This document shows positions 32,249 through 64,000 of a stretch of 64,000 nt of DNA, in pieces. Below the pieces are notes generated by a model. That model made no database searches, was not told the origin of the DNA, and saw only the letters and a list, made by a program, of their open reading frames with translations. Location: assembly GCF_000230735.2 (NCBI RefSeq), contig NC_019963.1, positions 62,001 through 126,000 of the forward strand, in the 5' to 3' direction. This DNA comes from Natrinema pellirubrum DSM 15624 (GTDB lineage Archaea > Halobacteriota > Halobacteria > Halobacteriales > Natrialbaceae). Each line of letters begins with the position of its first letter. The stretch's first letter is position 1. Made by a program: the position numbers and the translations under genes.

Positions 32249-34830
32249 TGTTCACCCTCTAAGAGAAGGTCACGATTGTCCACCCGTCGGTAGTTCGGCT
32301 CACCGGCGAGCCCCTCGATTGGGAACGCCTCGTCGCCAGTGCGGCGTCGGTTGAGTTCCGCCAGTCGCTCGTCGACAAACGATTCGAACGCATCGAGATC
32401 ATTCTTGAAGAATGCACCCTTCTGTCGGTCGACGATTGCTCGCATCACCTGCTTGCTCCCTGTTGTCACGTACTTGTACTCGCCAATCTCGGCTTCGAGC
32501 CGGTCAATCATCGTCTCTCCGAACTCGGAGTCGATGAGTTCGTCGCTGTCAGTCGTCTCGACAAGCGGCGCAGCATCGAAGAGCGCGGCGTATGTCTGAT
32601 AGTCGATCTTCGAGAGGATCTTCTGGCATTTCTGTGCCCCCTCCTCACGGAGATACTCGAAGAATTCCTCACGTTGCACGTGCTCGGTGAGCGATTCAGG
32701 GTAGTATGTTACAGTCGTCAACGCGTCGTCGATGTCGGCGTCGCCGGCGATCACGTCGTCGACGAGTTCGGTGACGTAGAAGAAGGTGAACGAGAGTTGG
32801 TCACCCGGACGTTGTAATCGCCAATAGGTGAGATAAAGTGCTGCCTGAAAGTCAGGCTCGTCTGTCGGCTCGTCAATCGCAGCGTGTTTGACGATTGAGG
32901 TGGCGCTGCTCTCGCTGCCACTCTTGTAGTCGAGCAGTTCTTGCTGCGACTGAACGAGGTCGATCATTCCATTGATGCCCAGTTCTTCGTCAGTAAACCG
33001 ACGTTCAGTCACGGGAGAGTCGACATCCCGACCGAAGTGAGCAGCGACGGCATTATCACCCCCACTGGACGGCGTCAGAAACGCGCCCTCGGTCGGCTGG
33101 TTCGCGTCAAGATATGAGACGATCGTTTCGAGGCTCGCACGATATTCAGTGCGCCGGGTCCGTTCGTCGACGGAGCGAACCAGCGGACGGACGTCCTCGA
33201 GCATAAGTTCGACGACCTCCGAGAGTGTCTCTTCGTCAATCTCGTCCGGATGGTTGACGTAGAACTCCGCGAAGTCGTGGAGCAGGTTGCCCTCGGTGAG
33301 ATACGCCTTCTCCGGACCGTCGACTATCCGGCTGAAGTAGTAGTCTCGCGGTGAGTTCACGTAGGTGTTGAGACTCGACTTGCTGATCGTCTCGACCGGG
33401 TCGGAAGTCACACCGACAGGTTCGTTCTCGAATCCGTCACCAGCTCGTGCTGCGGTTTCGATCTGATGACTTGTCGAAGGTAGATCGGAGAAGCGGTCGT
33501 ACTCCGGTTCGAGGAGCTCTTCGAAGTACAGGCACGGCGTAACGGGTGATCCGCCGGTCGCATCTTGGACGAGATAGTGTTGCTGGCTGCCGCTCTGCAA
33601 CAGCAGCTGGAAGCTCTTAAGATTCCGTGTAAACTGGGCGTCCTGGTCGACCCACGGACGACGTGGGGCCGAGTGGGTCCAGCGGTCGTCAAGCCCTAGG
33701 TAGAAGACAACCTCACGACCCACGTACGACGCTGATTTCGCATCGGCGAGCAAGACACCCTCGTTCTCTCGATCGACCGGCACCTCGTAGGTCTGGAGAT
33801 AGAACGACAAATCGTCGAGGCGCGCTTCCGTGATGGATTCGTCCGCGATGGTGAGTGTCTCCAGTTCCTCCCGGAAGGCATCCATCGTGTCGCCGGCGTG
33901 GCGTTCAAACACTGAAAGAGCATCCGAGAACGTGTACTCTTGGACATCGTGGCAGAAGTCGATCAGCCACTTGAGATCTCCATCGTCAAGCTCGTGCAGT
34001 CGCTTGTTTGTGTCAGCGTCGACGACGTCACAATCGAAGACCGTCAACAGCGACCGGATCTCGCTTATTCGGGTATCAGTCCCCCGGTGGGCGGTCCGGA
34101 GGAGGTGGAGGAACAACCGGTGTTCGCTGCGATCTGTGAATCCCGGCCCGCCGAAAAACGGGATATCGGCCGCTTCGAGCGCGGACTCGATAAGCGGTGA
34201 ATACTCGCTTTCCTGGTCGAGAACAATCCCGACGTTATCAGCGTTCTCGTCATCGACGGAATCGACGACGGTTTCGACGATCGCAGTCGGCGAATCGTGT
34301 ATACGGAACGGCGGAAGCTCGAACTCGGTATCAGCGAAGAGGTCGACCGTGTCGTACTCGGCAGGCAGATACGCTCGTTCGAGCTGGGTGAGCATCGCCG
34401 GCTCGACGACGACCACGTCGAGATTCGGATCGATGGTCTCGTTTGTGAGCTTCATCGAGGCGGTCTCGAGTTCCGCGATTCGCTCCACAGCTCGTTCGGT
34501 GGCATCGTCGACGTAGCCGTCGTACTCGAAGATAGCGTCGTGTGACCCTCGGTGTTCCCAACACTGGAGGATATTCCCAACCGCGTATGCACAGCGCTTC
34601 CAGGAGAGGTCCTCGTGATCAAGCATACCGAGGAAAGCGAGACGGTCCTCGGACTCTTGGCGTCGACCAACTGCAAGTCGGCGTGGTGGGATCGCGAACG
34701 GACCGAGATGCGAACGATCGAGGTGGCGGTTGAGAGCACTTGCAAGCGGCCCATCCGGAGTGATCACCCGGTCGTACGATTGAACCTCTTCGTAGAGTTG
34801 GCCTGGCGATTTGGCGCGGGGAAATGGCAC
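32245..34830 (-). CDS. AddB-like protein with PD-(D/E)XK nuclease domain
   Basis: The 861-residue protein has an N-terminal part lacking a clear Walker A and thus resembles an inactivated helicase of the AddB type. Its C-terminal half has a nuclease core: ISKSSLNTYVNSPRDYYFS, then GINGMIDLVQSQQELLDYKS. The four Fe-S Cys seen in many AddB proteins are not evident. It overlaps the AddA-like gene by 4 nt (ATGA), so the two subunits are made together. The AddB assignment rests on domain order and coupling. Confidence 0.8.
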   Translation of the reverse strand: MPFPRAKSPGQLYEEVQSYDRVITPDGPLASALNRHLDRSHLGPFAIPPRRLAVGRRQESEDRLAFLGMLDHEDLSWKRCAYAVGNILQCWEHRGSHDAIFEYDGYVDDATERAVERIAELETASMKLTNETIDPNLDVVVVEPAMLTQLERAYLPAEYDTVDLFADTEFELPPFRIHDSPTAIVETVVDSVDDENADNVGIVLDQESEYSPLIESALEAADIPFFGGPGFTDRSEHRLFLHLLRTAHRGTDTRISEIRSLLTVFDCDVVDADTNKRLHELDDGDLKWLIDFCHDVQEYTFSDALSVFERHAGDTMDAFREELETLTIADESITEARLDDLSFYLQTYEVPVDRENEGVLLADAKSASYVGREVVFYLGLDDRWTHSAPRRPWVDQDAQFTRNLKSFQLLLQSGSQQHYLVQDATGGSPVTPCLYFEELLEPEYDRFSDLPSTSHQIETAARAGDGFENEPVGVTSDPVETISKSSLNTYVNSPRDYYFSRIVDGPEKAYLTEGNLLHDFAEFYVNHPDEIDEETLSEVVELMLEDVRPLVRSVDERTRRTEYRASLETIVSYLDANQPTEGAFLTPSSGGDNAVAAHFGRDVDSPVTERRFTDEELGINGMIDLVQSQQELLDYKSGSESSATSIVKHAAIDEPTDEPDFQAALYLTYWRLQRPGDQLSFTFFYVTELVDDVIAGDADIDDALTTVTYYPESLTEHVQREEFFEYLREEGAQKCQKILSKIDYQTYAALFDAAPLVETTDSDELIDSEFGETMIDRLEAEIGEYKYVTTGSKQVMRAIVDRQKGAFFKNDLDAFESFVDERLAELNRRRTGDEAFPIEGLAGEPNYRRVDNRDLLLEGEQ

Positions 34831-36085: not shown

Positions 36086-39000
36086 CTAATCGTCCGCTTC
36101 GGCCGCTTCCGCGGCGTCCACGTTCAACGTCACGTCCTGCTTCCGTTCCGGTGCCGGTGGCTTCCCATCCGGGTACAGCTCCTGCATCTTCTTGTGATAC
36201 GCACCGAGCCCCATCTGCGAGTTGATGTACACGAGTTTCCCCGGATCCAGGCCGTACAACTCCATTAGCAACCGGTCGATCTTCCAATCCGTAGTGTCAC
36301 CTAACTCGCCGTCATCGAACATCGTATCGACGCAATCAGCAATCTCTTCTGCCCTCTCACGCCCGTCTTCTTCGGAGAGTTTCGCCACCGGGACCGGGAG
36401 TTCCCTGATGTCCGTCTGCCGCATATTAGCGAACGCCTCTGCGGCGTCAATCTCCCCGCTACGCTTGAACATGTAGTAATGCAGCACACGGGAGTTCATC
36501 AACCCGAGTAGGAACTTGTGGTACGTCGTCGTGTCGAGACCGCTCGGGACGTTCTCCGGGTCGGTCCATTTCCCCTCGTACTCCTCGTCCTCGTTGTCAA
36601 GATCGACGTCCACGTACCAGTCCAGCATGTCACCCTGGTCGGAGCGGATCTTATACACGTACACCGACCGCGGACAGTACACCGTGTCGTCGTGGAACGC
36701 GACCGACAACCCTACGCCGGCTTCCCGGATGAACAGCTTATCCCCGTCGTACACGGACTGGTCTTTGTAATTGACGCCATCGTACCCTAAGTCGAGACCC
36801 TTCAACTCTAGTTCGTCGTACCGTGCATCGAACGAATCACCGTCCATGTACGGCACGTCACCGTCGTCCGGGTCGTCGCTAATCAGGTACTCCTCGGCTG
36901 TTCGGTCCTGATACTCGAACACGACGTCACAGTAGTTGCACGTCTTCTCCGTGTCCGGGTCTCGACCGCGCGGCGGGGCAATCCACTTCCCGCACGCCGG
37001 GCACTTGATGACGTGCCCAGCCTTATTCAACTCGACGCCACGGTGCGACTCACAGAACGCACCGACCGGTATCGAATTGTCTTCCATCGTTTCGAGGAGC
37101 TCGTCGTCCTCAACGTACCGAAACGGCTCGATCTCCCCGGACTCGATGCATCGGCTCTGCGGGATGTCGAACGCGTACGCTGACTCCAGCTGCGATAGGC
37201 TCAACTCACCTTCAATCGCTTTCCGACGGTCTTCATCGACGAGAGTCATCGACCGGAACGTGTTGTCGTCGCTCGGCTCGGTGTTCTTGAGCTGCATCGT
37301 CACCGTGGACATGCGGATATCACTTCCGAACCAGTCCGCGCCCATGATGTGGAATCGTTCGAATTCGTAGTTATCGAGCAGGTGCTGCCGGATTTCAGCC
37401 TTCTCGGACCGGAGCAGGGTTTTCGGGAGAACGTACGCTAACCGGCCACCGTCGTCTAGGTACTTGCACGCGGTGAGGATGAACAACTCGTACGTGTCCA
37501 TGTTCTCGACGTCGAACTCGTCACCGAACTCATCGTCAACCCATTCGGCCGCTTCGGGGCTTACTTGCCCGCCCCACGGCGGATTCCCGATTATCAGGTC
37601 GAACTCGCCGAACCCGGCCGTTTCATCGATGTCTTCGAATTGGATTTCCCCGGCGAGCGCGTCCTGTGACGCGAAATTCCCGGTGAGCATACCGAGTGAC
37701 GTGTTCTTCCGCGCTGAGCGTAGCCACACGGAGAGTTTCGAGATTTCAATCGCTTCCTGTAGTAGGTCGTTCCCGTGCAGGCACTTGTCCAGAATCTCGA
37801 TTTCCCGCTTTTCGAACGATTCAAGCGGCACCTGTACCGGTCCGTCCGAACCGGCTGCTGCTACCTTCGCGGATCGGAGCTTCTCGTGCACTCGACGCGC
37901 CTCACGGCTCAAGTGGTTGAAACAGGACACCAGGAACGCACCGGACCCGCACGCTATGTCCGCGATTCGGATGTTGACAATTTCCTTCAGGTAGGCTTCA
38001 AGGAATTCCTTGTCGGGGTTCTCCATCTCCATCTCCCCGTTCTCAAGGTCTAACTCGTCCCGAATCTTCGCGCGCTTGTCCTGTAGAAGGTCCTGTATCG
38101 CGTGCTCGGCGACGTACTCGGTGAGACCCTCCCGCGTGAAGTACAGGCCATAGTCCCCTCGGTCACCGCTGAACGGGTTCGATTCGCCTTCTGCGAGGTT
38201 CGCTCGCACCTGCTCGATATCACCCACGCTCTCCTCGAAGATACGGCCGAGAACGTGCTCATTCAGGTCTTGGTGGAAGTCGTACTCGTAGAACCCGTAC
38301 ACGCCGTTAATCGTCGTATCCCCGATCTCGTATTCCCGAGTGAACAACTCGTCCGGGAGGATCACTGACTGCAGCACTTCGTCCTCCTCGAACAACCCGC
38401 CGTCGTACCCGAAGATATCGTACGGGTACTCGTCCGGGCTCCCAGTGTCGATGACTCTGAACATATCCTGAATGAGCGGGTAGATTTTCCGGTCGTCCAG
38501 CGTCGGGAGTGTCGCGCCGGTGCTGACGACGTCCTCAAGCAGGTCGTCCGGGAGTAGTCCGGACGGGTGGTCTGAGAAGAAGCAAATTACGAGACCGCGG
38601 TGTATCAGGGTTTGAGCGGCTTGAATCGCGGCAAGTTGCCCGTCGCTGGATTCGCCGAGTTCCGGGGCTTCGTTGATAATTTCCTCGTACACGTCCTCCA
38701 CAGCTTCCCGGTAGAATTGGTAGAAGTCCTCGGTGAGTTCCAACCGTTCGGACAGGTTCTGCGCCATGAGGTCCTCGATGTCCGAATCGGCATCCTCACC
38801 GATTAGGAACCGTCGGTGCATAATGAAGTAGAATTCCCAGAACGTCTCGGTCAACTCACCGTCGGCGTCAAGGAACTCGTCGATCTCCCACTCCTCGTAA
38901 TGGTCGATACTGCCGTGGTGGTACAACCTGACTACTTCCATGTTCGACGCGACAACCCACCGAACGGACAGACCGTTCGTGATCGCGTACTCGAATGCCT

Positions 39001-39370
39001 GCTCCACCGGTGATTTGAGGCGCGATGGATCGACTTTATCGAGGTCCGTCCCCGGGTCTTTCAGCTCACCGACGACTTTCCTGACGTCTTCAGTGAGATC
39101 CCCGTCGTCCTGTTCGAAGTGACCGAGTAGAACGTCGGGGAACCCGTCACCGCCTTCGGAGAGTGATTCAGGGAGGAGTTGGAATTCACCGGCGCTGCCG
39201 CGCGGTCGAGTGTATCCAAGTACATCGCTGAAAATGTCACTTACGAACGATTGCTGCAGGTTGCGCTCAGTGAGTGACGTGCTCGTTCCCGTCCAGCCTT
39301 CCACGGCATCAACAATGTCGTCGGTGTCGACTGGGCGTTCGACTTCCTGTTGCTGTAAGTACTCATCCAC
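36086..39370 (-). CDS. Type IIG restriction-modification enzyme (Eco57I-like)
   Basis: The 1094-residue protein has an N-terminal endonuclease-like region with FPDVLLGH and VVGELKDPG (about residues 77-105), a PD-(D/E)XK pattern. The methyltransferase domain follows: motif [15 protein letters not shown] (about 465-480) and motif [12 protein letters not shown] (about 590), which is N6-adenine type. Around residue 790 is a zinc ribbon, [13 protein letters not shown]...CNYC. The C-terminal region ([20 protein letters not shown]) probably recognises DNA. A single chain that both cuts and methylates fits type IIG. No separate specificity gene is seen. Confidence 0.88.
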
Positions 39371-52250: not shown

Positions 52251-53939
52251 TCAACAGATCAGTAAGAATAGCCAATATGGAAGATAGCAGACATCGCTAT
52301 CGTCATAGGAAATACGCAGCGAACCCTGCTCGAGTATGTCTTTCGGAAGACTATCTGTGATGATGAACCGGCAGGGTGCTTTGTAGTTGTAGTCTTGTAG
52401 CTCCTCGCTACCGGGTTTCGTGTGTTGGCCGACCGCAGGATCGAATTCGATCGCAGTTTGTTCGGCAGCGTCCGTATTGGGATGGTAAGAGAGTACGAAC
52501 GGCAGAACGTTTCCCTCGCACTGTAGGACGTAATCCACGAGTCCAGAGTTCGTCTCGCAGTATTCGACGTCGTAGGCGCCGACGGTGAACGCGAGACGCT
52601 TTGCGTGGTCGAACGCGACCGTTCTGGCCAATTTGTACTCGAATTCGTGATTGAGTGTGCCTTCGTGACTGTACTCCTCGAATCCATAGTGTTCTTGACG
52701 CTGTGATAACAGAACAACGTGCCGGGGATTGCGGAGATACAGACGAGTTCGTCGATATCGACGAAGCGAGTAATCGTGGGACTCGGACACTGCAATTCCC
52801 TCATCCAATGCCTCGAGATAACTGTCGACAGTCCGACGATCGACACCGATTCGATCACTGATATCCGTGTATCGAAGTTCCTCGCCGGCTTGACTCGCTG
52901 CGATCGAACTGAGTTTGTGCAGATTTTCGGGCTTTTGAATGGATTCGTGCTTCGCTAACTCCTTGTACAGATACAGCAAGAAGTATGATTTAGTGAGTTC
53001 ATTTCGTACTGACGCGTCACTGGCACGGTGTACCGTCCCGCCGATTTGCAAGTACTCACGAGACGCATCGTGGAGGTCATCTCGCTGACTCGGTGAGAGG
53101 TGTTCAAAATAGAGCTCATTGAGGGACGCGATCGCGTCATCGATATTAGCACCACCGTCTCTCAAATTGAGCGACCGTCGAACCGCTTTGATCGGTGCTG
53201 GTCCGGGTAATCCGTCTGACTGATATGCTTCAAGTTGCTCCCTGAATTCGGAGCCGAGGTCCACTTGGAGGCCACCCTCGGCGGCGCGATGTTGAACCGT
53301 ATCGACGAATTTCATTGGGAGCACTGGTGTGGGGCCTTTGAATGCGTCTATTTCGTCGGCATCTGATCGAGTCTTGAGATCGACTTGCGAAGCGACGATT
53401 CCAGTGAGAAACAGATATGTTCGCTGGTCGACTAGATCGAGAAGCTCATTGTGTTCGTCTTCCTCGAGATTGAGCGCACCGATGTCGTCCAGAAATATGT
53501 ACTTTTGACCTCGCCGCGGAGCAACGTGTGAGTCGAAGTAGTCTACGACTTGCTTCAACCGCGTAATCGCATCTTCTGGCCGCTCTAAGTGATAGAGCGA
53601 CGCTTCGAGTGGTACATATAGTATCTGGCGTGGCGATACTGATCCTGCGATTTCGTGATCGCGTCCTCCTCCCGGAAAATCGGTTGTATCCAGCAGTGCC
53701 GCGATGAGCTGCTGGAAGAGAGTCGTCTTTCCCATTCCGGTCTGTCCGTAGATCTGGTAGACGAGATTTTCCGTGCCGTTTTGTCGCGCTTCGTTGACCG
53801 TTTTGAGAAGTTGGTGAAAGTCGGAACGCGGTGTGAGTGAGGCAGCTTCTAAGACTGTCGCCGGTCGCTCCTCCCTCCACCACTCATTGTGGCGCTTAGC
53901 GTCGGCGATAAACTTCTCTTCACTACCTGCGTCGGTCAT
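52251..53939 (-). CDS. AAA-family ATPase with C-terminal winged-helix region
   Basis: The 562-residue protein has Walker A in YQIYGQTGMGKTTLFQQL (about residues 63-72) and Walker B in KYIFLDDIGALN (about 146). A lid-like region follows, with a helix-turn-helix near residue 360 (YTDISDRIGVDRRTVDSYLE). The layout is that of archaeal AAA/DUF4143-type ATPases, which are common in defence islands and mobile elements. It is the first of two minus-strand genes facing away from the Argonaute. A role in the same system is possible but not shown. Confidence 0.75.
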   Translation of the reverse strand: MTDAGSEEKFIADAKRHNEWWREERPATVLEAASLTPRSDFHQLLKTVNEARQNGTENLVYQIYGQTGMGKTTLFQQLIAALLDTTDFPGGGRDHEIAGSVSPRQILYVPLEASLYHLERPEDAITRLKQVVDYFDSHVAPRRGQKYIFLDDIGALNLEEDEHNELLDLVDQRTYLFLTGIVASQVDLKTRSDADEIDAFKGPTPVLPMKFVDTVQHRAAEGGLQVDLGSEFREQLEAYQSDGLPGPAPIKAVRRSLNLRDGGANIDDAIASLNELYFEHLSPSQRDDLHDASREYLQIGGTVHRASDASVRNELTKSYFLLYLYKELAKHESIQKPENLHKLSSIAASQAGEELRYTDISDRIGVDRRTVDSYLEALDEGIAVSESHDYSLRRYRRTRLYLRNPRHVVLLSQRQEHYGFEEYSHEGTLNHEFEYKLARTVAFDHAKRLAFTVGAYDVEYCETNSGLVDYVLQCEGNVLPFVLSYHPNTDAAEQTAIEFDPAVGQHTKPGSEELQDYNYKAPCRFIITDSLPKDILEQGSLRISYDDSDVCYLPYWLFLLIC

Positions 53940-54029: not shown

Positions 54030-56309
54030 TTACAAGACTTGTCGCACAAGAGCCGCTTGAACGACTTCGTCCTTCGTTTCGTGAGGGCAGTTCTCGTTCT
54101 CGGTTGTCGCAACGATGAGTTCGTCCATCTCCTCGAGGGTACTGACCGGTAGCTCGCGATCATCGACATCGAGACCGATCGCATCGCAGAGTGTCTGAAC
54201 GACGAAGGACTCCGCGTCCGAGGCGTCATCGTTCGCCGCAGTAGTTGCGATGAGCTTCTCGAGTGCCGGATCGGCATCGATCGTGAGTTTTCGTTCTATG
54301 ATTCCTTCCCATTCGGACCACGGCTGGTTGCCCCGTAGCACTTCCGTGAGGTACGTTTTGACTGCCGACTCGACGAACGCTGCGGTCGATTCGCCCTCGG
54401 TACTGGCCCGGCGTTCGGCGAGTGTTCGAATTGCGGGATCGATCCGAACTGTTTCGTCGGTCACCGTCCCTGTTGTCTCTTCAGCTATAGTTTTGCTCAT
54501 TGTCGAATCCGAATCTTCCGTATTCTTGTCCTCGGTCTCGCTCTCAGTTTGCTCTGTGTACGAGACTGCAGTCGATTCATCAGTAGTTTCCGTCTCGGTA
54601 GCCGATTCGCCCTCTCCGAGGCTATCAGCATCTTTTCCGCTGGCTTCCTTCGATTCAGCTTTCGATGTCCGCTCGGCAGTAGTATCATCCGAGGAGGTAT
54701 TGCTCTCCGTTGACGCCGACTCGCACAGCACGTTGACGACCGTCGGATTTACGATCTCGTCAGGCACCTTCGACGGATTCGGCGTCACATACTTGGTGTC
54801 GTTCGATGGCTGATCGACAGTTCGATACAATCCGCCATCGGTCGCATGAGTCGGAGCGACGTGTGCGTTCTGCGTGGTAGTTGTCTCCGTTTCGGGCTCT
54901 ACGGATTGAGTCGCCACTGCCTCCTCGGGCTGAGATCGACCGATATGGAGTTCTTCGCGGAGCCGAGCGACGTCTACGCCTTCTTGTTCGAGGGTGGCCA
55001 TCCCTCGGCGCTCGAGTACCGGAACGCTCGCTGCCGCTTGCAGGACCCCGTCTCCGACGTCGATCGTGCTCCGTTGCTCGTCGCAATTACGCACACGTCG
55101 CTTCGCGGCATCACCGATCCAGTCCGGTGCACAGAAGTTTCCGTCCTGATACAACTGCTCCGTTCCGGAACTGCCGGTTGCCCACGTATATGCGTCCCAC
55201 TTGTCTTTATACCGCTTCAGGGATCGGCCACGCTGGTGCGTGATGACGACGTGGGTTGGAGCGATCGTTTCGACGACCTCGTCGAGAACCGCTTCGGTCG
55301 GATGGTTCGAAAACGTGAACGACGAAACGGTGCCAGCGAAGTCGCCGGCGTCTTTCGCAGTCGTGGTTCCGCCCTGAACCTGTATCAGCGTCGCATTCCC
55401 GTCGTCACGTATCGCCTCGAAGAGCCGTTCGCTGCTTCCCTCGGTCGGAACCTCCGGCCCGGCGATAGTTACGGTCCCTTCCTCGAGGCAGTCGTGAGGA
55501 ATCGCGAACTCTGGGATGGTCTCCACGTTCGGATAGTCATATTCCAATGCATCGTAGAGTTTCGCGACTTGTCCGACGAGAGTAACTGGAACTGAATAGC
55601 CGAGTTCGTGTTCGATCGAACCGAGAAGCGTTGCGAGGTGAACGCCAGTCAGTCCACTTGCCGTACAGAGCGTCTTCGAGCCAGCGTTGGCACGAGCGGC
55701 GAGCGTCTCGACGATATCAGTGATCGTCTCGTCGACGCCATCGTTCGTCGCGGCCGTGAGGAATAGTGCATCGACCTCGAGGAACTGTTCCGGATCGAAT
55801 CCGATGTATCCGCCAGCGTCGCGTCGTGTGAAGTCCCCGGTAGCGAGCGCACGGAAACTCTCCTGTCCGTCGCGGGCTCGAATCAGGAATCCGCACGCCC
55901 CTGGCGTATGCCCCGCTGGCACGGGGGCTACACTGATGTCATCACCGACGACATCGGCCCAGTCGTCGATCGCTTCGACTCGTTCGAGTATCGAGTCAGG
56001 ATCTGACATCGAATGGTGCCGTACACCTTCTGCTAAGACGTCCTCGAGGATCGCCGCTGTTCCGGGGGACGTGAAAATCGGTGCCCCGTCACGATGGGCC
56101 TCGTCCAACGATTGGTAGTGATCGAGGTGCGCGTGGGTGAGGAGTATCGCTGCCAAGTATTCGTCGTCACCGAGTAGTGTCGATGTGTCGACGCCGTCCC
56201 CCGCATCGACGAGAATGCAGGGAGTCTGCCGTTCGTACTCTCGTTGAACCCGAAGAAGAAACGACTCGTTGCCCGCCCTCGGATTCGCATGTTCGTAAGA
56301 AACCTCCAT
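54030..56309 (-). CDS. MBL-fold (beta-CASP-like) hydrolase with long acidic linker and C-terminal domain
   Basis: The product has 759 residues. The N-terminal metallo-beta-lactamase domain has the zinc motif THAHLDHYQSL (about 56-66) and further ligand segments (PAGHTPGACGF, RALATGDFTRRDAGG). It also has a beta-CASP-like SNHPTEAVLDEVVETIAP and VVITHQRG, as in RNase J and CPSF nucleases. Residues about 450-610 are low-complexity and acidic. The last 140 residues are helical (ESTAAFVESAVKTYLTEVLR). It is divergent from the Argonaute across 430 bp, so it may be a partner nuclease. Confidence 0.78.
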   Translation of the reverse strand: MEVSYEHANPRAGNESFLLRVQREYERQTPCILVDAGDGVDTSTLLGDDEYLAAILLTHAHLDHYQSLDEAHRDGAPIFTSPGTAAILEDVLAEGVRHHSMSDPDSILERVEAIDDWADVVGDDISVAPVPAGHTPGACGFLIRARDGQESFRALATGDFTRRDAGGYIGFDPEQFLEVDALFLTAATNDGVDETITDIVETLAARANAGSKTLCTASGLTGVHLATLLGSIEHELGYSVPVTLVGQVAKLYDALEYDYPNVETIPEFAIPHDCLEEGTVTIAGPEVPTEGSSERLFEAIRDDGNATLIQVQGGTTTAKDAGDFAGTVSSFTFSNHPTEAVLDEVVETIAPTHVVITHQRGRSLKRYKDKWDAYTWATGSSGTEQLYQDGNFCAPDWIGDAAKRRVRNCDEQRSTIDVGDGVLQAAASVPVLERRGMATLEQEGVDVARLREELHIGRSQPEEAVATQSVEPETETTTTQNAHVAPTHATDGGLYRTVDQPSNDTKYVTPNPSKVPDEIVNPTVVNVLCESASTESNTSSDDTTAERTSKAESKEASGKDADSLGEGESATETETTDESTAVSYTEQTESETEDKNTEDSDSTMSKTIAEETTGTVTDETVRIDPAIRTLAERRASTEGESTAAFVESAVKTYLTEVLRGNQPWSEWEGIIERKLTIDADPALEKLIATTAANDDASDAESFVVQTLCDAIGLDVDDRELPVSTLEEMDELIVATTENENCPHETKDEVVQAALVRQVL

Positions 56310-56736: not shown

Positions 56737-59280
56737 ATGCCGACGCAGTCCGATATCGAGGACGGGGAACGAATTGATATACAGGTCAAGGTCCTGTCCG
56801 AACTGGACCGACCCTCTGAAAAGATGGCAAAACGGCTTCGCGTTCGCGACACCGACGGAAACGAATTTCCGCTTACCATCTGGAAGAACAACGCCCTGTG
56901 CGACTTCGCATGGGAACGCGGTCGGTGGTATGAACTCGAAAACGCACGTGGCAACGAATTCCGTGGCGAAAAGAGTCTGAACGGTTCGTCACGACTGCAC
57001 GCCGACCCGGTTGACAATCCGATAGACTCTGATCGATCGCAGCAGTCTACGACAGCTGAATCAACTGACAAGCAATTCGATAGCCTAGAAGACGGACTCC
57101 CGTATCTCTCACTGTTTCCGATCGACCGTGAATTCGAGACCGTAGACGTCTACGAGTATCGGATTGAGGCCGACGGACCGTTCGACGATGATCCGATGGA
57201 CGCAACGTATACACTCGCCGCGTATCTTCGATCGTGTAGTGACGCTGCCGTCACGCACGCTGGTATCTTCTCGGTTATCGCGACCAATCGGTTGACGAAC
57301 GCGCTCCCCGATCCGTTTGAATTAACTGATGAGTCTCGAGTGACGCTTCGGGCGGACGACGAGACGGATAACGAATGCCTCGTTCGACTGCTCCAGCAAG
57401 TGTTCAAAACCGCAGTCGACGATGAAACGTACGAGACGGGTCGCGTCGATCGCATCCGGACACAGGACCCGGTCATCACGGGGCAAGATGGGCTCTTCGA
57501 GGCGTGTCTCGCGTACACGGCGCGTCTCGAAATTCTCCCGTCTGGCAAGGCGTTCGTCGGGATCGACATCAGTTATCATGCACGGAGCCAGGTTACCGTC
57601 GACAAGTACGTTGATCGGATCAATGCTTCCGTCGACGAACTCATCGATACGCCTGTCGAACATGATCCGGAAAGGTACGAAAAATCGGGTAGCGGCCGAC
57701 TCAAAGGATTTGCAGACGTAACGTTTACCGATCCCGTCGACGACTTCGGAAATCAGTCGCTCGCCGACTGGTACGAGCAAAAGGGCCGCATCTCCGACGA
57801 TATGCTCGAGCGACTTCGGTCGGAGGACCCACAGCTTGTCGAAATACAGTACAATCCCAATTCCGACGAGACGAACCTTCACGTCCCGCAATTACTCCGG
57901 GTCGCTCCGCGCAAGGAGATCGTCAAGAAGCTCGCGCCGACGTTCCACCGCAAATGGGACCGCGCCGCCAAGATGCTTCCCGACGACCGGTTCCGAAAGG
58001 CAACGCGATTCGTCGCTCGGCTGGATTCGCTTTCCGAGGTCGACGCGCAGATCGAACCCAATCCCGTCGGACCGAACATCTCGTTCATGTCTACGGAGGT
58101 CGACCGTTCAGACAACCTGCGATTCGGCGACGATCAAACGACGACCTTGCCGAACAACGGACTGAAGCGATACGGGATCTATCGCCGTCCATCGTCGCTC
58201 CACCTCCACTATCTCGTCCCCGAACGGTACACTGACGAGTTCGCGTCGTTCAGAGAGCAACTCGAACGACAGCTCGCCACCATCGGCTGCTCACCGGACG
58301 ACATCTCCTACGACGAGTACGGACTGGGGAACGCGATCAACTACAATACGACGGCCGCAGCGGTCGACGATGTCGATATCGTCCTCGCTGTCGTTCCCGC
58401 GCCGGACAACGACTTCATCCGGAACGGGACCATCGACGATCCGTATCCCGAGTTCAAGAAATCGCTCGGCAAGCAAACCATCCCGTCACAGATGGTCCGG
58501 GAGGACAACCTCGACGACAGGTGGATTCTCCGAAACACTGCGCTCGGAGTGATCGCAGGTGCCGGCGGAGTTCCGTGGCGCGTCGACGAGATGCCGGGCG
58601 ATGTCGACTGCTTCGTCGGCCTCGATGCGACACGCGACCCGGAGACTGGACAGTTCCTCGGGGCGAGTGCGAACGTCGTCCTCTCCGATGGGACCGTCTT
58701 CGTCTCGAAAACGCAATCGCTCCAGTCCGGCGAGACGTTCGACGAGAACGCTATCGTCGACGTTCTCAAAGACGTCCATCGCGAGTTCGTACGTGAAGAG
58801 GGCAAATCCCCCAATAACATCGTGATTCATCGCGATGGCCGCCTCTTCGAGGACGTCGATACCATCCTCGAACCGTTCGACGAAACGGACATCGATATCG
58901 ATATTCTCGACGTTCGAAAGAGCGGTGCTCCGCGAGCTGCCGTCTATCAAGACGACCAGTTCCAGGTCGATCACAAAGGCCGTCTCTTTGTCGCCCAGAG
59001 CGGTGACTACGGATTCCTCACGACGACCGGACGTCCGGAGTTCGATGAGGATGACGGACTCGGGACACCACGGTCCCTTCGAATCGTTCGACGAGCAGGC
59101 GAGACGCCGATGCGGACGTTACTGGAGCAGGTGTACTGGCTAAGCGAGAGTCACGTCGGGAGCGCACAGCGGAGTACGCGCTTACCGATCACGACGTACT
59201 ACGCCGATCGCTGTGCCGAACACGCTCGAGAGGGATATCTCGTCAATGGAGAGCTCATTCGCGGTGTCCCATACCTCTGA
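56737..59280 (+). CDS. Long prokaryotic Argonaute with N-terminal OB-fold (NgAgo-like)
   Basis: The 847-residue protein begins with an OB-like domain (IDIQVKVLSELDRPSEKMAK to WYELENARGNEF, residues about 12-80). The MID/PIWI half follows from about residue 540: YPEFKKSLGKQTIPSQMV is the guide 5'-end pocket region. The PIWI tetrad is D630 (CFVGLDATRD), E666 (QSGETF), D700 (VIHRDGR) and D824 (LPITTYYADRCAEH). All four are present, so a nuclease is likely. The C-terminus, TRLPITTYYADRCAEHAREG then YLVNG, closely matches the Natronobacterium gregoryi Argonaute. Such proteins use short guides to target DNA and act against plasmids or viruses. Confidence 0.92.
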   Translation: MPTQSDIEDGERIDIQVKVLSELDRPSEKMAKRLRVRDTDGNEFPLTIWKNNALCDFAWERGRWYELENARGNEFRGEKSLNGSSRLHADPVDNPIDSDRSQQSTTAESTDKQFDSLEDGLPYLSLFPIDREFETVDVYEYRIEADGPFDDDPMDATYTLAAYLRSCSDAAVTHAGIFSVIATNRLTNALPDPFELTDESRVTLRADDETDNECLVRLLQQVFKTAVDDETYETGRVDRIRTQDPVITGQDGLFEACLAYTARLEILPSGKAFVGIDISYHARSQVTVDKYVDRINASVDELIDTPVEHDPERYEKSGSGRLKGFADVTFTDPVDDFGNQSLADWYEQKGRISDDMLERLRSEDPQLVEIQYNPNSDETNLHVPQLLRVAPRKEIVKKLAPTFHRKWDRAAKMLPDDRFRKATRFVARLDSLSEVDAQIEPNPVGPNISFMSTEVDRSDNLRFGDDQTTTLPNNGLKRYGIYRRPSSLHLHYLVPERYTDEFASFREQLERQLATIGCSPDDISYDEYGLGNAINYNTTAAAVDDVDIVLAVVPAPDNDFIRNGTIDDPYPEFKKSLGKQTIPSQMVREDNLDDRWILRNTALGVIAGAGGVPWRVDEMPGDVDCFVGLDATRDPETGQFLGASANVVLSDGTVFVSKTQSLQSGETFDENAIVDVLKDVHREFVREEGKSPNNIVIHRDGRLFEDVDTILEPFDETDIDIDILDVRKSGAPRAAVYQDDQFQVDHKGRLFVAQSGDYGFLTTTGRPEFDEDDGLGTPRSLRIVRRAGETPMRTLLEQVYWLSESHVGSAQRSTRLPITTYYADRCAEHAREGYLVNGELIRGVPYL

Positions 59281-59344
59281 GACAGCGATGCTGTGAGCCC
59301 GAACCAACTCGAATCACCACTTTCAGACGCCCATTCCACGACAG

Positions 59345-61498
59345 ATGCAATTCGACATTCCGATTGACACCGCCGAAACGGACGATAGCTACGTCGAGAT
59401 TTTCAAAAGCTGGCGCTCGTTCTCCGACCTCTTCGAGGATGCACGACGGATGCGTGTCGTCACGTACTGCGACTCCCCGGAGTTCATTCTCGATCTCTTC
59501 GAGGATCTCGATGAACTGGAATCGCTTGAGGTGATCGTCGGTGACGTCGATGACTATCGCGAGCGACTCATCGACAAGCCGGACCTCGCTGACAGACTCG
59601 AGCGCCTTCGCCGGGAAGGGAAGCTCGTCATCTACCTCTGCGAGAATAAGGAAGTCCACTCCAAACTCTATCTGATCGAGTATGCAGACACCGCTAATGG
59701 GTCTGATGACGATATCGAGAGCGAGGGGAAAAGCGATCAAATGACGTTCGATTACGATGAGCAATCTGGAGAAGAAGACGAAGCCGAAAGATCGCCGGCG
59801 AAAGTCATCGTCGGTTCTCCGAACCTCTCACGCAATGCGTGGTCGAATCAGACCAACGTCGGCGTCGTGTACGAGACGACCACTGCCAGTGACCTTTTCG
59901 GGGAATTCGAAGATTTGTACCGAGACCACCGCGACTCGTATAATAACAGTGGTCCGTTCCTCGAGGATCTAACGGAACAGATCGAACACTCGGAGGACGA
60001 TCGAGAGGAAGTGATTAAACTCTTCACCGAGGGTGCGGTCGGAACACAAGACGAACTCGGTGAAGTCCACGGTCGTCTCGCCGATCACATCGATGCCGAG
60101 GTCGATACGGTCGATCTCGTTCTCGGAGACGGACATGACGAGGAATCATCGAGCGATGAATCCGAGACAACAGAGAGCGACCCTGTATCGGAAACTGACG
60201 ACGCTGAGCCGGGACTGGAAGATGCGCCGCAGGATCGTATCACGCTCTCGCTGCGAGGATACGACGAGTCGACTGTCGATACGTTATCGCAGATGTCGGA
60301 CTTCGATGCGACCGTCTCGAACGATACGTTGACGGCGACGCCTGATGCGTTTCAGCGGTATGCCCAGCAGGTGTTCGACGTCCCGACGATGCATCTCGAC
60401 CAAGAGGAAGACCAACTCAAATTCCACTACGATGGGACTGTCTATCGCCTTACCCGACCTCCAGGTGAGCCCCAACAGGTTAACGATGCTCTCGCTGAGA
60501 TAGAGGCGTACTTTGAGACCGTCGACGATTACGGGAATTCCAATAATCCCACAGCGGTGAAAGCACACATGTACGAGGCGCTTCTGTGGTTCTTCTGGGC
60601 ACCGTTTGCGAATCGACAAGCGGAGTTCTATCAGCGACACGGTATTAATCTCGATAAAGCCCTACCGTACCTCTACGTATTCGGCGAGTCGAACGGTGGC
60701 AAGGGGACGTTCTGTCGATTCGCCCTTTCGCTGATTAGCGGAAACCGAGTCGAAGCGCCGGTTGACGCCGACGAGATCGGCAAACGGAAGGTCCGTAATC
60801 TACGGTCGGTCCATACGTCGTTCCCGGTTGTAGTCGACGACATCACCAAGCAGAAGGTGAATTCGCTGGACACGCTGCGTAACTACTGGAGCGGCTGGAC
60901 CGGTGAGACGTCGTATCCAATGTTCGCGTTCATTTCGAACGACAAACGCCCCGGTGAGTGGTTCCGGAACCGGGCCAAGATTCTGCGATTCGACGTCAAC
61001 TTTATGACCTCACATCAAGGTGAGGCGGAGGTCAATCGGTTGATCGATACGGAGAATCCTCTCTATCAGTGGTTCGGATACGAGTATCTGAATCGAGATC
61101 TCGAACTCGGCGAAGATTCCGATGCACTCCGCGAAGTGCGAGAGGCGATGTTGGATCTATACGAATATGCAGATCGTTCGGTCCCCAATTACTTCCCGAA
61201 AGACCCGGCTGAGAACGCTTACGATACGGGTCGCGAGCGATGGCGGAACCTCATCGATCGCGAGGATGTGACGATCACCAGAGACGGAGATACGCTCCAA
61301 GTCACGTTCCCCGAATCGATGAACTTCGAACTCCACGAGTACAAGCGAGATCCGCCGATGACCGTTCGTATCGAAAAGCGGGGGCTAGATCTCATCATCA
61401 AAACGCCGGACGAATTCTTCGAGTGGTTAGGTGAGTCTACTGAAACAGGTCCACGTGGGAGTTTCCTCTCACGGGCCCGGTCAATTCTGAAACGATAA
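59345..61498 (+). CDS. PLD-like nuclease fused to an SF3-type ATPase
   Basis: The 717-residue protein starts with a PLD-type region: HSKLYLIE (His about 105) and GSPNLSRNAWSNQTNV (about 157), one HxK and one GSxN unit. An acidic linker and a middle domain follow. Then comes an ATPase core: Walker A VFGESNGGKGTF (about 445-456), Walker B FPVVVDDIT (about 493), a motif-C-like MFAFISNDKRPGEWF and an Arg in FRNRAKIL. This resembles superfamily 3 or D5-like helicases. It is 64 nt after the Argonaute gene on the same strand, probably one transcript, and would unwind or degrade targeted DNA. Confidence 0.75.
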   Translation: MQFDIPIDTAETDDSYVEIFKSWRSFSDLFEDARRMRVVTYCDSPEFILDLFEDLDELESLEVIVGDVDDYRERLIDKPDLADRLERLRREGKLVIYLCENKEVHSKLYLIEYADTANGSDDDIESEGKSDQMTFDYDEQSGEEDEAERSPAKVIVGSPNLSRNAWSNQTNVGVVYETTTASDLFGEFEDLYRDHRDSYNNSGPFLEDLTEQIEHSEDDREEVIKLFTEGAVGTQDELGEVHGRLADHIDAEVDTVDLVLGDGHDEESSSDESETTESDPVSETDDAEPGLEDAPQDRITLSLRGYDESTVDTLSQMSDFDATVSNDTLTATPDAFQRYAQQVFDVPTMHLDQEEDQLKFHYDGTVYRLTRPPGEPQQVNDALAEIEAYFETVDDYGNSNNPTAVKAHMYEALLWFFWAPFANRQAEFYQRHGINLDKALPYLYVFGESNGGKGTFCRFALSLISGNRVEAPVDADEIGKRKVRNLRSVHTSFPVVVDDITKQKVNSLDTLRNYWSGWTGETSYPMFAFISNDKRPGEWFRNRAKILRFDVNFMTSHQGEAEVNRLIDTENPLYQWFGYEYLNRDLELGEDSDALREVREAMLDLYEYADRSVPNYFPKDPAENAYDTGRERWRNLIDREDVTITRDGDTLQVTFPESMNFELHEYKRDPPMTVRIEKRGLDLIIKTPDEFFEWLGESTETGPRGSFLSRARSILKR

Positions 61499-61598
61499 TA
61501 AAAACCATCTACCATGTGGACCTCGATTTGATCTATATCGAACCATCAGTTATTCGTTAGCCGGTTGAACCAAGTACTTTCAATATAATTGTCCGTAT

Positions 61599-62450
61599 AT
61601 GACAGGTGGCATCTCTCCCGGGGACAGGTGGCCGTACCATTACCGAGGATACGGACTAAGTGCAAATCAGGACGGAGAGGTGTGGTGGCAAGTTTACAAT
61701 GGAACTGATCGATTGAAACTTGAACCTACTCCGACTCGTCTCGTCGAGAATTTCCTCGGAATCAAGTATAAAGGCGGCGCCATGAGGGTTACAGAGGGTG
61801 GTGCCGTCATTTCGCGACTCGAGACCGATACCGACGGTGATTCGAACGACTACGAAACCATCTATGTCTGTGATATCGAGTTCGATGGAAAACTTGTCCC
61901 GCCTGAGAAACCGGAACACGCGGTACCGATCAATCCTCGTGGATTGAGTCCGGGAGATCTCTGGCCCAGTATCTACGACGGCGCCAAATATTCGTTCAGC
62001 GGCACTCGGTTCTGGTGGCAGAACGGAGCGACGAAACTCCGGCACTCGTTCGTCAACGCACTTCCTGACAGAATTATTGACGAATTGCGACAGCTGCGGC
62101 CCGATGGCGGGTCCTTTCAGATCACTCCGGCGGGTGATGTCCTCACACAAATCCCGACTGAGGAATCACCGCCTGACGTCCAAGAACAGTTCCGTGACCT
62201 CCCCCGCCCGGTCAAGCGGATCCTCAAGCTCCGACGCGATCGCGGCAATGTCGATATGTTACCGGTCTATGTCGGACAGCTATCGGAAGACGATCGTCCG
62301 ATAGAAATCGAAGAAGCGACCCGACTCACGGATCCATTGAGCGAGAAGGAGGAATCATCCCTCGAGGCGTGGGCTGCCATGGGTTCGTACGACGAAAGCG
62401 ACCTTTCGGTGGAGGACCACCGACTTGATGAGCCGGAGGGGGACCGCTAA
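61599..62450 (+). CDS. Unknown protein with two copies of a GDxWP domain
   Basis: The product has 283 residues. Two repeats are visible: SPGDRWPYHYRGYG...GGAMRVTEGGAVISRLE...TIYVCDIE, and SPGDLWPSIYDGAK...GGSFQITPAGDVLTQIP...PVYVGQLS. The first seems more diverged. The domain is Trp- and Gly-rich and beta-strand-like, and I do not recognise it. A TATA-like ATATAATT precedes the ATG. Its stop overlaps the next gene's ATG by one base. Its place directly after the Argonaute and PLD-ATPase suggests a shared system. Confidence 0.75.
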   Translation: MTGGISPGDRWPYHYRGYGLSANQDGEVWWQVYNGTDRLKLEPTPTRLVENFLGIKYKGGAMRVTEGGAVISRLETDTDGDSNDYETIYVCDIEFDGKLVPPEKPEHAVPINPRGLSPGDLWPSIYDGAKYSFSGTRFWWQNGATKLRHSFVNALPDRIIDELRQLRPDGGSFQITPAGDVLTQIPTEESPPDVQEQFRDLPRPVKRILKLRRDRGNVDMLPVYVGQLSEDDRPIEIEEATRLTDPLSEKEESSLEAWAAMGSYDESDLSVEDHRLDEPEGDR

Positions 62451-63340
62451 TGGGTACACAAGTGACTCAAGCGGCCCTCGAACAGCAGCCCACAGATGTT
62501 CCCGTAGAGGGAGGTCGACAAGTAACTGTCTTGCCTGGTGACCCATGGCCTTCTGCATATCGCGGCTCGGAATACAGCATCGTCACTTCGAGAAAACACG
62601 GCGCTGTCGCGAAATGGAGCCACATGGGTGATATCCAGGCAATAACGGATGTTCCGGACGGACTCCAGGAAGCTCTCCGTGATCTCGGGAAAGAGGCCGG
62701 TCTAGGGAGTTTTCGGCTGACAGCTGCAGGCGAAATCCTCACGAAAATACCTGATTCTGATTATCGGAAGAGAGGAAAGGCGCCTGTCTCCCGTGGGTAT
62801 ATTCCAGTCTACGTTGGACAGATCGAAGGAATGTTCGACTTTCAGGCGTTCTCGAACGATCCCGCCCCACCTAAGGCTGTGGGAGACGTAAGTGTCTGGT
62901 CCGGCCTATCATTCAAACACGGTGAAACATGGGCAGTGACTTCCGATGATACCCTCTGCTGGAGCTGGCAGGACTACTACTTCGAGTCAGCGTTCGATCA
63001 CTCAGAGATCGTAGAAATATACAAACGATTCCGCCCTCCTGGTGGGCTGATCTACATTAATGAACATGGTCATATCTGGGGGAATATAAACCGTGAGAAC
63101 GTTCCGGCGAGCGAACAAGAACGAATTGGTAAAGCCTTCAGTGAGTGGCAGCAAACGGCTTCGAATGCGGAGAGACGGCTCGTCACTCGTCGTTTGAAAC
63201 GAATGGAAAGTAAGTCTGCGCCTGACGGGCTTCTTCCAATGTATTTCGGTCATCTCAGCCAGTACGACGAGGGTCTTATTCCGAAACCTGTCGTCAACGA
63301 TGAGCACTACTTTACCGATACAGCGAAGGATCTGGATTAG
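62450..63340 (+). CDS. Unknown protein with two further copies of the GDxWP domain
   Basis: The product has 296 residues. It carries LPGDPWPSAYRGSE...LGSFRLTAAGEILTKIP...PVYVGQIE, and VGDVSVWSGLSFKHG...PGGLIYINEHGHIWGNI...PMYFGHLS. Each copy has the same order: GD-x-W, Gly-rich strand pair, then (P)xYxGxL. It is a paralogue of the preceding protein and is translationally coupled to it (TAATG). Two adjacent paralogues suggest a heteromeric complex. Function unknown. Confidence 0.75.
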   Translation: MGTQVTQAALEQQPTDVPVEGGRQVTVLPGDPWPSAYRGSEYSIVTSRKHGAVAKWSHMGDIQAITDVPDGLQEALRDLGKEAGLGSFRLTAAGEILTKIPDSDYRKRGKAPVSRGYIPVYVGQIEGMFDFQAFSNDPAPPKAVGDVSVWSGLSFKHGETWAVTSDDTLCWSWQDYYFESAFDHSEIVEIYKRFRPPGGLIYINEHGHIWGNINRENVPASEQERIGKAFSEWQQTASNAERRLVTRRLKRMESKSAPDGLLPMYFGHLSQYDEGLIPKPVVNDEHYFTDTAKDLD

Positions 63341-63378: not shown

Positions 63379-64000
63379 ATGGGACGACGCTTTCCGACTC
63401 CGATATTCGGTATCGAACGAGGACCTGAATGGATACCGACGCTCGTCAACGTCGCTAGACGCCATGACGGTGAACTTACACGCGATCAATTCGAAGACAT
63501 CTGTCGCGAAGAGTGCCGGAAGCCTAACGGAAGCCGCTATTCTTCGAGTTACATGCAGCGGGCCCTCTCTACGTTTATTCGGCTCGGGATCGTTCGCGAG
63601 GTCGACGGGAAGATAAGTATCTGGAAATTCGCGGACGAATTCGCAAACGGCGAGATCGAGTATGCGGAGTTCCTCTGGCGCGGGATCAAACAGAGCTGGG
63701 TTCTCGCTGGGAACTTCCCAGAGGGAATCGAGGGACTCCGTCGAGTACACTACGTCGTGATACATGCGGAGGAACCCCTTTCGAGTACAGAAATCAGAGA
63801 CCAGCTGACTGCTCAATTCGATTACGAATACAACGATGCAGGTATTCGCGGATATCCGGAACTACTCGTTCAACTCGGTGCGCTCCGTCAAACCGATGAC
63901 GGATACGTGACTGGCCCCAGATCTAGTACATTCGAAAATCGCTGGCGGCGTGCGGACGTCTTCTTCAGACTCGAGCGCTGGTTCCATCATCGCGGCCCGT
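63379..64000 (+). CDS. Winged-helix protein, partial (runs off the window)
   Basis: The frame opens at ATG 63379 and stays open to the end of the window (207 codons). It starts MGRRFPTPIFGIERGPEW. One winged helix is near residue 32 (LTRDQFEDICREECRKPNGS, SYMQRALSTFIRLGIVREVD). A second is near 125 (LSSTEIRDQLTAQFDYEYND, IRGYPELLVQLGALRQTDDG). It is 38 nt after the repeat protein on the same strand and likely continues the cluster. The full domain set cannot be seen. Confidence 0.7.
   Translation, partial: MGRRFPTPIFGIERGPEWIPTLVNVARRHDGELTRDQFEDICREECRKPNGSRYSSSYMQRALSTFIRLGIVREVDGKISIWKFADEFANGEIEYAEFLWRGIKQSWVLAGNFPEGIEGLRRVHYVVIHAEEPLSSTEIRDQLTAQFDYEYNDAGIRGYPELLVQLGALRQTDDGYVTGPRSSTFENRWRRADVFFRLERWFHHRGP

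Follow-up and report, generated by a model that had tools for sequence, protein, structure and literature searches.

Does an archaeal Argonaute gene that is followed on its own strand by a nuclease gene, two repeat-protein genes and a helicase gene belong to one multi-gene defence system, or do separate units lie side by side? The question is raised by a 64,000-nucleotide stretch of Natrinema pellirubrum DSM 15624 (NC_019963.1, positions 62,001 to 126,000 of the forward strand), called the window below, which lies on a contig of 275,821 bases in a haloarchaeal genome of 4.35 Mb and three contigs. On the plus strand, the window ends with ago (56737..59280), encoding a long-A prokaryotic Argonaute (Ago) of 847 amino acids (aa); agaP (59345..61498), encoding a 717-aa protein with a phospholipase D (PLD) nuclease part (residues ~5-208) and a part resembling superfamily 3 (SF3) ATPases (~350-630); the repeat-protein genes R1 (61599..62450) and R2 (62450..63340); and the start of HEL (63379..64000; whole gene L002:13379-16261), encoding a superfamily 2 (SF2) helicase of 960 aa. 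Successive gaps are 64 bases (ago-agaP), 100 bases (agaP-R1), -1 (a one-base overlap of R1 and R2) and 38 bases (R2-HEL). In an earlier note on this DNA, Ago, AgaP, R1 and R2 were proposed to form a single defence system. The best explanation of the data below, to which we give a probability of about 0.85, is that two separable modules meet here: ago-agaP, which is the published APAP system, and R1-R2-HEL, a helicase unit of other restriction-like clusters that is not needed for the core activity.

The Argonaute reading frame is matched by PADLOC (pAgo, E=0) and Pfam (Piwi, 8.7e-13), and in an alignment with CbAgo chain 6qzk its D630, E666, D700 and D824 fall on positions 541, 577, 611 and 727, which we take to be the CbAgo catalytic residues. 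That chain carries alanine at 541 and 611, and we assume the construct to be a double mutant. The long Argonaute with an intact catalytic tetrad that the earlier note described is thus confirmed. The N-terminal OB-fold that it also named was not recovered: Pfam gave nothing convincing there, and the best single-stranded-DNA-binding PDB chain had an E value of 1.5. The segment is similar to portions of other haloarchaeal proteins.

The APAP system of N. pellirubrum consists of Ago and AgaP (PMC11442185). According to that paper, the two genes are co-transcribed, Ago and AgaP together restrict plasmid DNA via the PLD active site of AgaP, a single-stranded DNA (ssDNA) virus is suppressed mainly via the Ago active site with enhancement by AgaP, AgaP alone is toxic, and Ago restrains this toxicity; in Haloarcula hispanica, Ago plus AgaP alone gave immunity to both plasmid and virus. 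All 12 residues named in its text match the window by position (Y570, K574 and D630 of Ago; H105, K107, E112, G119, S120, D122, G157, S158 and N160 of AgaP), and because of this agreement we take the window pair as the published one. Further points of likeness are the spacing of the catalytic motifs (HxK, with GSxN ~50 aa on), the order of ago and agaP, and the gap between them, which at 64 bp is the upper end of the published range of 31-64 bp. As far as can be told from the sequence, the window ago-agaP appears to be the published APAP. It differs in its setting, as two genes were tested in the paper and R1-R2-HEL lies outside the tested system. By the count given there, AgaP adjoins 28 of 63 haloarchaeal Agos. 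The authors mention that some ago-agaP operons have a helicase gene nearby, and they leave open both the source of the guides and how extrachromosomal DNA is singled out.

R1-R2-HEL is a module of its own, separate from ago-agaP. Among 391 haloarchaeal genomes, an even sample from the larger class, 23 contain R2. In 19 of the 22 other than the window's, the R2 loci were read in stretches of 14-20 kb, and none was beside Ago or AgaP; several of these genomes (e.g., G317, G024, G214 and G343) have an Ago-AgaP pair elsewhere in the genome. At E<=0.001 the other three (G030, G313 and G318) gave no Ago match, and of these only G313 gave an AgaP match, a distant one. A family-wide search, in which R2 occurred in 3 of 125 genomes, added a genome of the same genus with R1, R2 and HEL 75, 76 and 85% identical; there the module is preceded by a gene of family N112, and no Ago or AgaP was present in 19.5 kb. 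A plasmid of Haloferax lucentense also carries the module with neither gene beside it. The partners elsewhere are SNF2, N103 and Mrr-type genes together, AddAB-like genes, N111 with N112, or a PbeC/DndD-like gene, and among the loci seen only the window has R1-R2-HEL in an Argonaute locus at the place where others have a DNA end-processing machine, as described below.

In none of the 20 further R2 genomes whose loci were read did the module adjoin Ago or AgaP; the four families are therefore not conserved as a system, and we rejected that proposal. The earlier note had said that the cluster would be a chance neighbourhood if Argonaute homologues in other haloarchaea were unlinked to the remaining genes; such linkage is missing for R1, R2 and HEL and is present for AgaP. 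Its idea of a defence system thus survives in part: a PLD protein acting with a catalytically intact Argonaute is borne out by the published experiments (PMC11442185), while the four-family composition is contradicted by the occurrence of R1, R2 and HEL elsewhere without Ago or AgaP and by the sufficiency of the pair in H. hispanica. Similarly, its remark that the gene set is not a described system holds for the R1-R2-HEL half and not for the Ago-AgaP half. In the literature searched, neither the R1-R2-HEL module nor the machine pattern set out below was reported, and no SF3 domain was ascribed to AgaP; some of the genes may, however, be drawn in Figure 1B/1C of PMC11442185.

A recurrent cluster of HEL, R1, an SNF2 helicase, an N103 protein of ~1100 aa, an Mrr-type nuclease and R2 was seen at L161:3957-14898, and similar clusters, some with one gene uncalled, at L159, L160, L162-L168, L171, L172 and L174. 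To our knowledge this cluster has no name.

R1 and R2 are two coupled proteins, as the earlier note had it. R1 has two diverged units of ~110 aa, and R2 is homologous to R1 with its second unit more diverged. With identical sequences removed and the proteins cut between units, a profile of the first R1 unit matched every second unit of R1 (18 of 18), every first unit of R2 (23 of 23) and, among the second units of R2, 4 of 23 (E<=0.1), and 0 of ~103 shuffled units at the same threshold. By this profile comparison, R1 and R2 are built from homologous units, and the repeat is real. The same profile matched the last 160 residues of 7 of 21 HEL proteins (best E, 2.4e-6), so that an R-related unit at the HEL C-terminus is likely; we rate this as weakly supported because the other three unit profiles matched 1 (the second R1 unit), 0 and 0 of the 21. 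Neither R1 nor R2 belongs to a family in Pfam, PADLOC or NCBIfam, an R2 profile gave nothing credible against PDB sequences, and single-protein and alignment scans of viral contigs gave no R2 relatives. A structure prediction of R2 from two sequences reached a predicted local distance difference test score (pLDDT) of 45.9 and was not used.

What the earlier note had called a winged-helix gene proved to be the 5' part of HEL, which ends 2,261 bases past the window; a small winged-helix regulator was rejected, as the full gene encodes a 960-aa helicase of the ResIII/DEAD type (ResIII, 2.6e-25). The HEL core is similar to PbeA/DndH-type helicases (PADLOC PbeA, 2.7e-47; TIGR04095 dnd_restrict_1, 2e-34, far below the curated cut-off). 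It differs from them in that the match spans the helicase core and not the first 330 residues, and in that the partners of HEL are R1 and R2. No Dnd or Pbe genes were found among the subset of window proteins scanned with PADLOC; two R/HEL loci elsewhere, L169 and L172, contain the PbeC/DndD-like gene N118.

For agaP, the earlier reading as a PLD nuclease fused to an SF3-like ATPase is supported by motifs and by structure matches in separate parts of the protein. The PLD motifs are H105xK107 and, remote from it, G157-S158-x-N160. In the ATPase part, Walker A lies at 447-455, Walker B runs to D499 and a motif-C-like FISND occupies 529-533, with G452, K453, D499, N532 and R543 invariant among 40 aligned sequences; its classification relies on what we take to be the SF3 motif set, namely Walker A, Walker B, a motif C ending in N and a downstream arginine. 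In comparisons of the AlphaFold model (mean pLDDT, 80.3), whose VIA-align rows cover chiefly residues 5-208 and 371-555, the PLD part matched the NgoAVII R-protein (Z 12.0; root mean square deviation [rmsd] 3.6; 153 aligned) and Nuc (Z 10.4; rmsd 3.8; 145 aligned), and the ATPase part matched Cch (Z 12.2; rmsd 4.6; 243 aligned) and the SaPI5 primase-helicase (Z 9.5; rmsd 4.0; 191 aligned). The further scores for AsfvPrimPol (Z 8.8), MPXV E5 (Z 8.2) and the MCM and Rix7/NVL AAA+ rows (8.3-8.9) are near the level at which a match can reflect no more than a shared arrangement. The ATPase part had no match in Pfam or NCBIfam, an AgaP profile found nothing credible among PDB sequences, and AgaP relatives were not found in viral contigs by single-protein or alignment scans. 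Because AgaP carries a predicted SF3-type ring ATPase, movement of the protein along DNA probably accompanies cutting at its PLD sites.

Taken together with the published work, the locus suggests the following mechanism. The published experiments show that Ago restrains the toxicity of AgaP, and that the pair removes plasmid DNA through the PLD site of AgaP and suppresses ssDNA virus mainly by the Ago active site, with AgaP enhancing. Ago would use short guides and bring AgaP to the invader, a step inferred both in PMC11442185 and here, and the ring ATPase would probably drive AgaP along the DNA during cutting. R1-R2-HEL occupies a place in the same-strand run where many haloarchaeal Ago-AgaP loci have an end-processing machine; its possible roles in its own host are to open DNA or to supply Ago-AgaP with ends, or it may be an independent neighbour.

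How general that place is was assessed at Argonaute loci across the same 391 genomes, with genes called by a simple script (which missed one AgaP, that of L246, annotated in the record). Ago was present at E<1e-40 in 52 genomes, and 49 of the 52 loci were analysed (G107, G261 and G359 were left out), including L261 and L263 on contigs of only 7.3 and 6.4 kb. A family of an end-processing machine lies within 9.5 kb at >=100 bits in 37 of the 49: AddAB-like in 19, Mre11-Rad50-NurA-HerA-like in 14 (a count that includes family F10, assigned by position only, F11 alone being identified as NurA), MrfAB-like in 10, R-HEL in 1 and an SNF2 type in 1, some loci having two. Among 24 control stretches of 18-20 kb (20 random regions, the unrelated L003 and L004, and two stretches of this window), only one held a machine, this single positive being the window's own AddA-like gene; control L231 contains AgaP. 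Counts of 36, 13, 1 and 23 were entered by hand in this set of comparisons. In a quick tree of 48 Agos (L103, of 474 aa, was dropped for length), scored within 12.5 kb for eight states that include "none" and combinations, there are at least 17 changes of machine state and at least 9 in the presence of AgaP (23 of 48); L067 was hand-labelled Mre11/Rad50-like, the Ago of L082 is broken and sits on a very long branch, and the tree carries long-branch warnings. In 12 of 17 loci with Ago and AgaP, the window included, a machine gene belongs to the same-strand run, on either side. An earlier survey (PMC6299218) already listed nucleases, Cas4 and PLD among them, and helicases of the UvrD or DEAD type in operons of prokaryotic Argonautes, and outside the MID-OH group it saw no fixed make-up of these operons; exchangeable whole machines in haloarchaea are not described in the genomic-context section of that survey, and the pattern may be new. 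A protein of the E1/JAB (ThiF) type was also seen beside AgaP and MrfAB-like genes at L068, L079-L081 and L087.

Several points weigh against this picture and against the separation of the two modules. The contrast is smaller when R2/HEL loci are the reference, at 36 of 49 versus 5 of 20 for the first three machine types (p=3e-4), and the contrast with the controls is inflated, since the machine families were drawn up from the very Ago neighbourhoods that were counted and the random controls are mostly chromosomal. Twelve of the 49 Ago loci have no machine; L067 is among them, yet Pfam shows a phosphoesterase and an AAA_27 protein there, and L066, without a machine at 100 bits, has a DEAD-MZB match at 60 bits. 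The word ATPase occurs nowhere in the text of PMC11442185, so that the motor role of AgaP is a prediction. Lastly, R1-R2-HEL lies on the strand of agaP, R1 following it after 100 bp and HEL following R2 after 38 bp; such spacing is compatible with one operon.

Among the accounts of what R1-R2-HEL does in this locus, the one that fares best is that it lies in this defence island by chance, is directed at a target of its own and is functionally unconnected with Ago-AgaP. We consider this somewhat probable: the module is linked elsewhere with N112, N111, SNF2 plus N103 plus Mrr, AddAB-like or PbeC-like genes, and the window holds other defence-like genes (AddAB-like, 29399-34830; type IIG, 36086-39370), although chance alone has to place it on the same strand where other Ago-AgaP loci have a machine.

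In the opposite account, ago, agaP, R1, R2 and HEL are one integrated operon, in which HEL with R1 and R2 would unwind the target for Ago-AgaP, as AddAB-, MrfAB- or Mre11-Rad50-NurA-HerA-like machines perhaps do beside other Agos. The common strand and short gaps are in its favour, as are the 12 of 17 loci with a machine gene in the run and the frequent changes of machine state in the tree, given which yet another type at this place would be nothing unusual. On the other side, none of the R2 loci read in 20 further genomes adjoins Ago or AgaP, and at the Halomontanus rarus locus, whose Ago is 82.6% identical, the pair occurs without R1-R2-HEL. In H. hispanica, moreover, Ago and AgaP are active by themselves (PMC11442185), and the 100 bp between AgaP and R1 look AT-rich on inspection and might include a promoter. 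We therefore find one integrated operon doubtful. With position speaking for a functional link, and linkage elsewhere and the published two-gene function speaking against it, that R1-R2-HEL works with Ago-AgaP seems rather unlikely.

A further alternative concerns the pair itself: AgaP would originally have been the nuclease of a Mre11-Rad50-NurA-HerA-type defence machine, and the Argonaute a targeting add-on gained by some lineages. At E<1e-40, relatives of AgaP were detected in 89 genomes of the 391 (98 at E<=0.001, some partial) and those of Ago in 52, and among 51 named AgaP loci, whose family labels had no bit-score floor, Ago is present in 4 and at least two of the Mre11, Rad50, NurA, F23 and HerA families in 17, of which 15 have no Ago called in the locus. 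Some of these loci lack Ago only in appearance, owing to the flank read, as shown by L251-L255, in which Ago, a Mre11-Rad50-(NurA or F10)-HerA-like operon and AgaP lie within 19 kb and Ago is 8-11 kb from AgaP; moreover, 15 of 29 AgaP-only loci have no machine within four genes. With evidence on both sides, this origin of AgaP can be put forward only tentatively, as the less probable course. AgaP relatives were also seen in two metagenome assemblies labelled bacterial (L187 and L188).

Least probable is a two-part pathway in which a swappable machine (AddAB-, Mre11-Rad50-NurA-HerA- or MrfAB-like, here R1-R2-HEL) would open and degrade invader DNA, and AgaP, a Zucchini-like PLD nuclease on an SF3 ring motor, would trim the products into Ago guides and also be the effector; we think this unlikely. 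It is drawn by analogy with Zucchini and with work reportedly done on RecBCD and CbAgo. Zucchini/MitoPLD (PLD6) is a eukaryotic nuclease of piRNA biogenesis. Like AgaP it has a PLD fold (Z 10.3; rmsd 3.3; 135 aligned) and stands beside an Argonaute-family protein; unlike AgaP it has no ATPase and acts on a different substrate, and the fold likeness is common to many PLD nucleases in the same list.

The nearest relative of the window Ago in the tree (G386) is 91% identical and has an MrfA-like helicase without AgaP. Halomontanus rarus (L246), with DUF4143, MBL, Ago and AgaP genes, is the closest locus found with both ago and agaP. In loci with an Ago of ~890 aa, AgaP, AddB-like F8, Cas4-like F20 and AddA-like F4, to which we give the label NgAgo-type on the assumption that protein length suffices, Ago adjoins AgaP and a DUF4143 ATPase gene is divergent upstream, as here; the window Ago differs in belonging to another Ago clade, about 37-39% identical, and the downstream helicase here is the SF2 protein HEL and not a UvrD/AddA-like one.

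Divergent from ago on the minus strand are the genes of an AAA_14-DUF4143 ATPase (52251..53939; Pfam DUF4143, 2.1e-08; AAA_14, 3.3e-07) and, between it and ago, of a metallo-beta-lactamase-fold (MBL) protein with an acidic linker (54030..56309; Pfam Lactamase_B_2, 3e-08). The earlier note began its cluster at ago and so omitted both, which are kept in this order in the two closest Ago loci found (L065 and that of H. rarus); 21 of the 49 Ago loci have a homologue of the DUF4143 ATPase no more than 9.5 kb from Ago. Farther off, ~22 kb from ago, the window has its own AddAB-like pair, a UvrD-PDDEXK helicase and an adjacent PDDEXK protein (29399-34830, minus strand), of the machine type most often counted near Ago in other genomes. 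The window also has an Eco57I-type methylase that is likely a type IIG restriction-modification enzyme (36086-39370, minus strand). Just past the window, at L002:16367-17365 on the minus strand, a protein that joins an N-terminal ArdC domain to an M78 peptidase domain resembles an anti-restriction factor.

The Ago-AgaP core is known; three things appear to be new, namely the predicted SF3 motor of AgaP, the presence of an exchangeable machine beside Ago and the R1-R2-HEL module. AgaP is thereby recast as a probable motor-nuclease that occurs in more genomes than Ago, and R1-R2-HEL emerges as a helicase module, so far undescribed, that belongs to accessory loci of haloarchaea. If the pattern of exchangeable machines holds, it points to the source of guides of long-A archaeal Argonautes and to their recognition of extrachromosomal DNA; and should the guide-making pathway be true, archaeal Argonaute would have a guide-making apparatus of its own.

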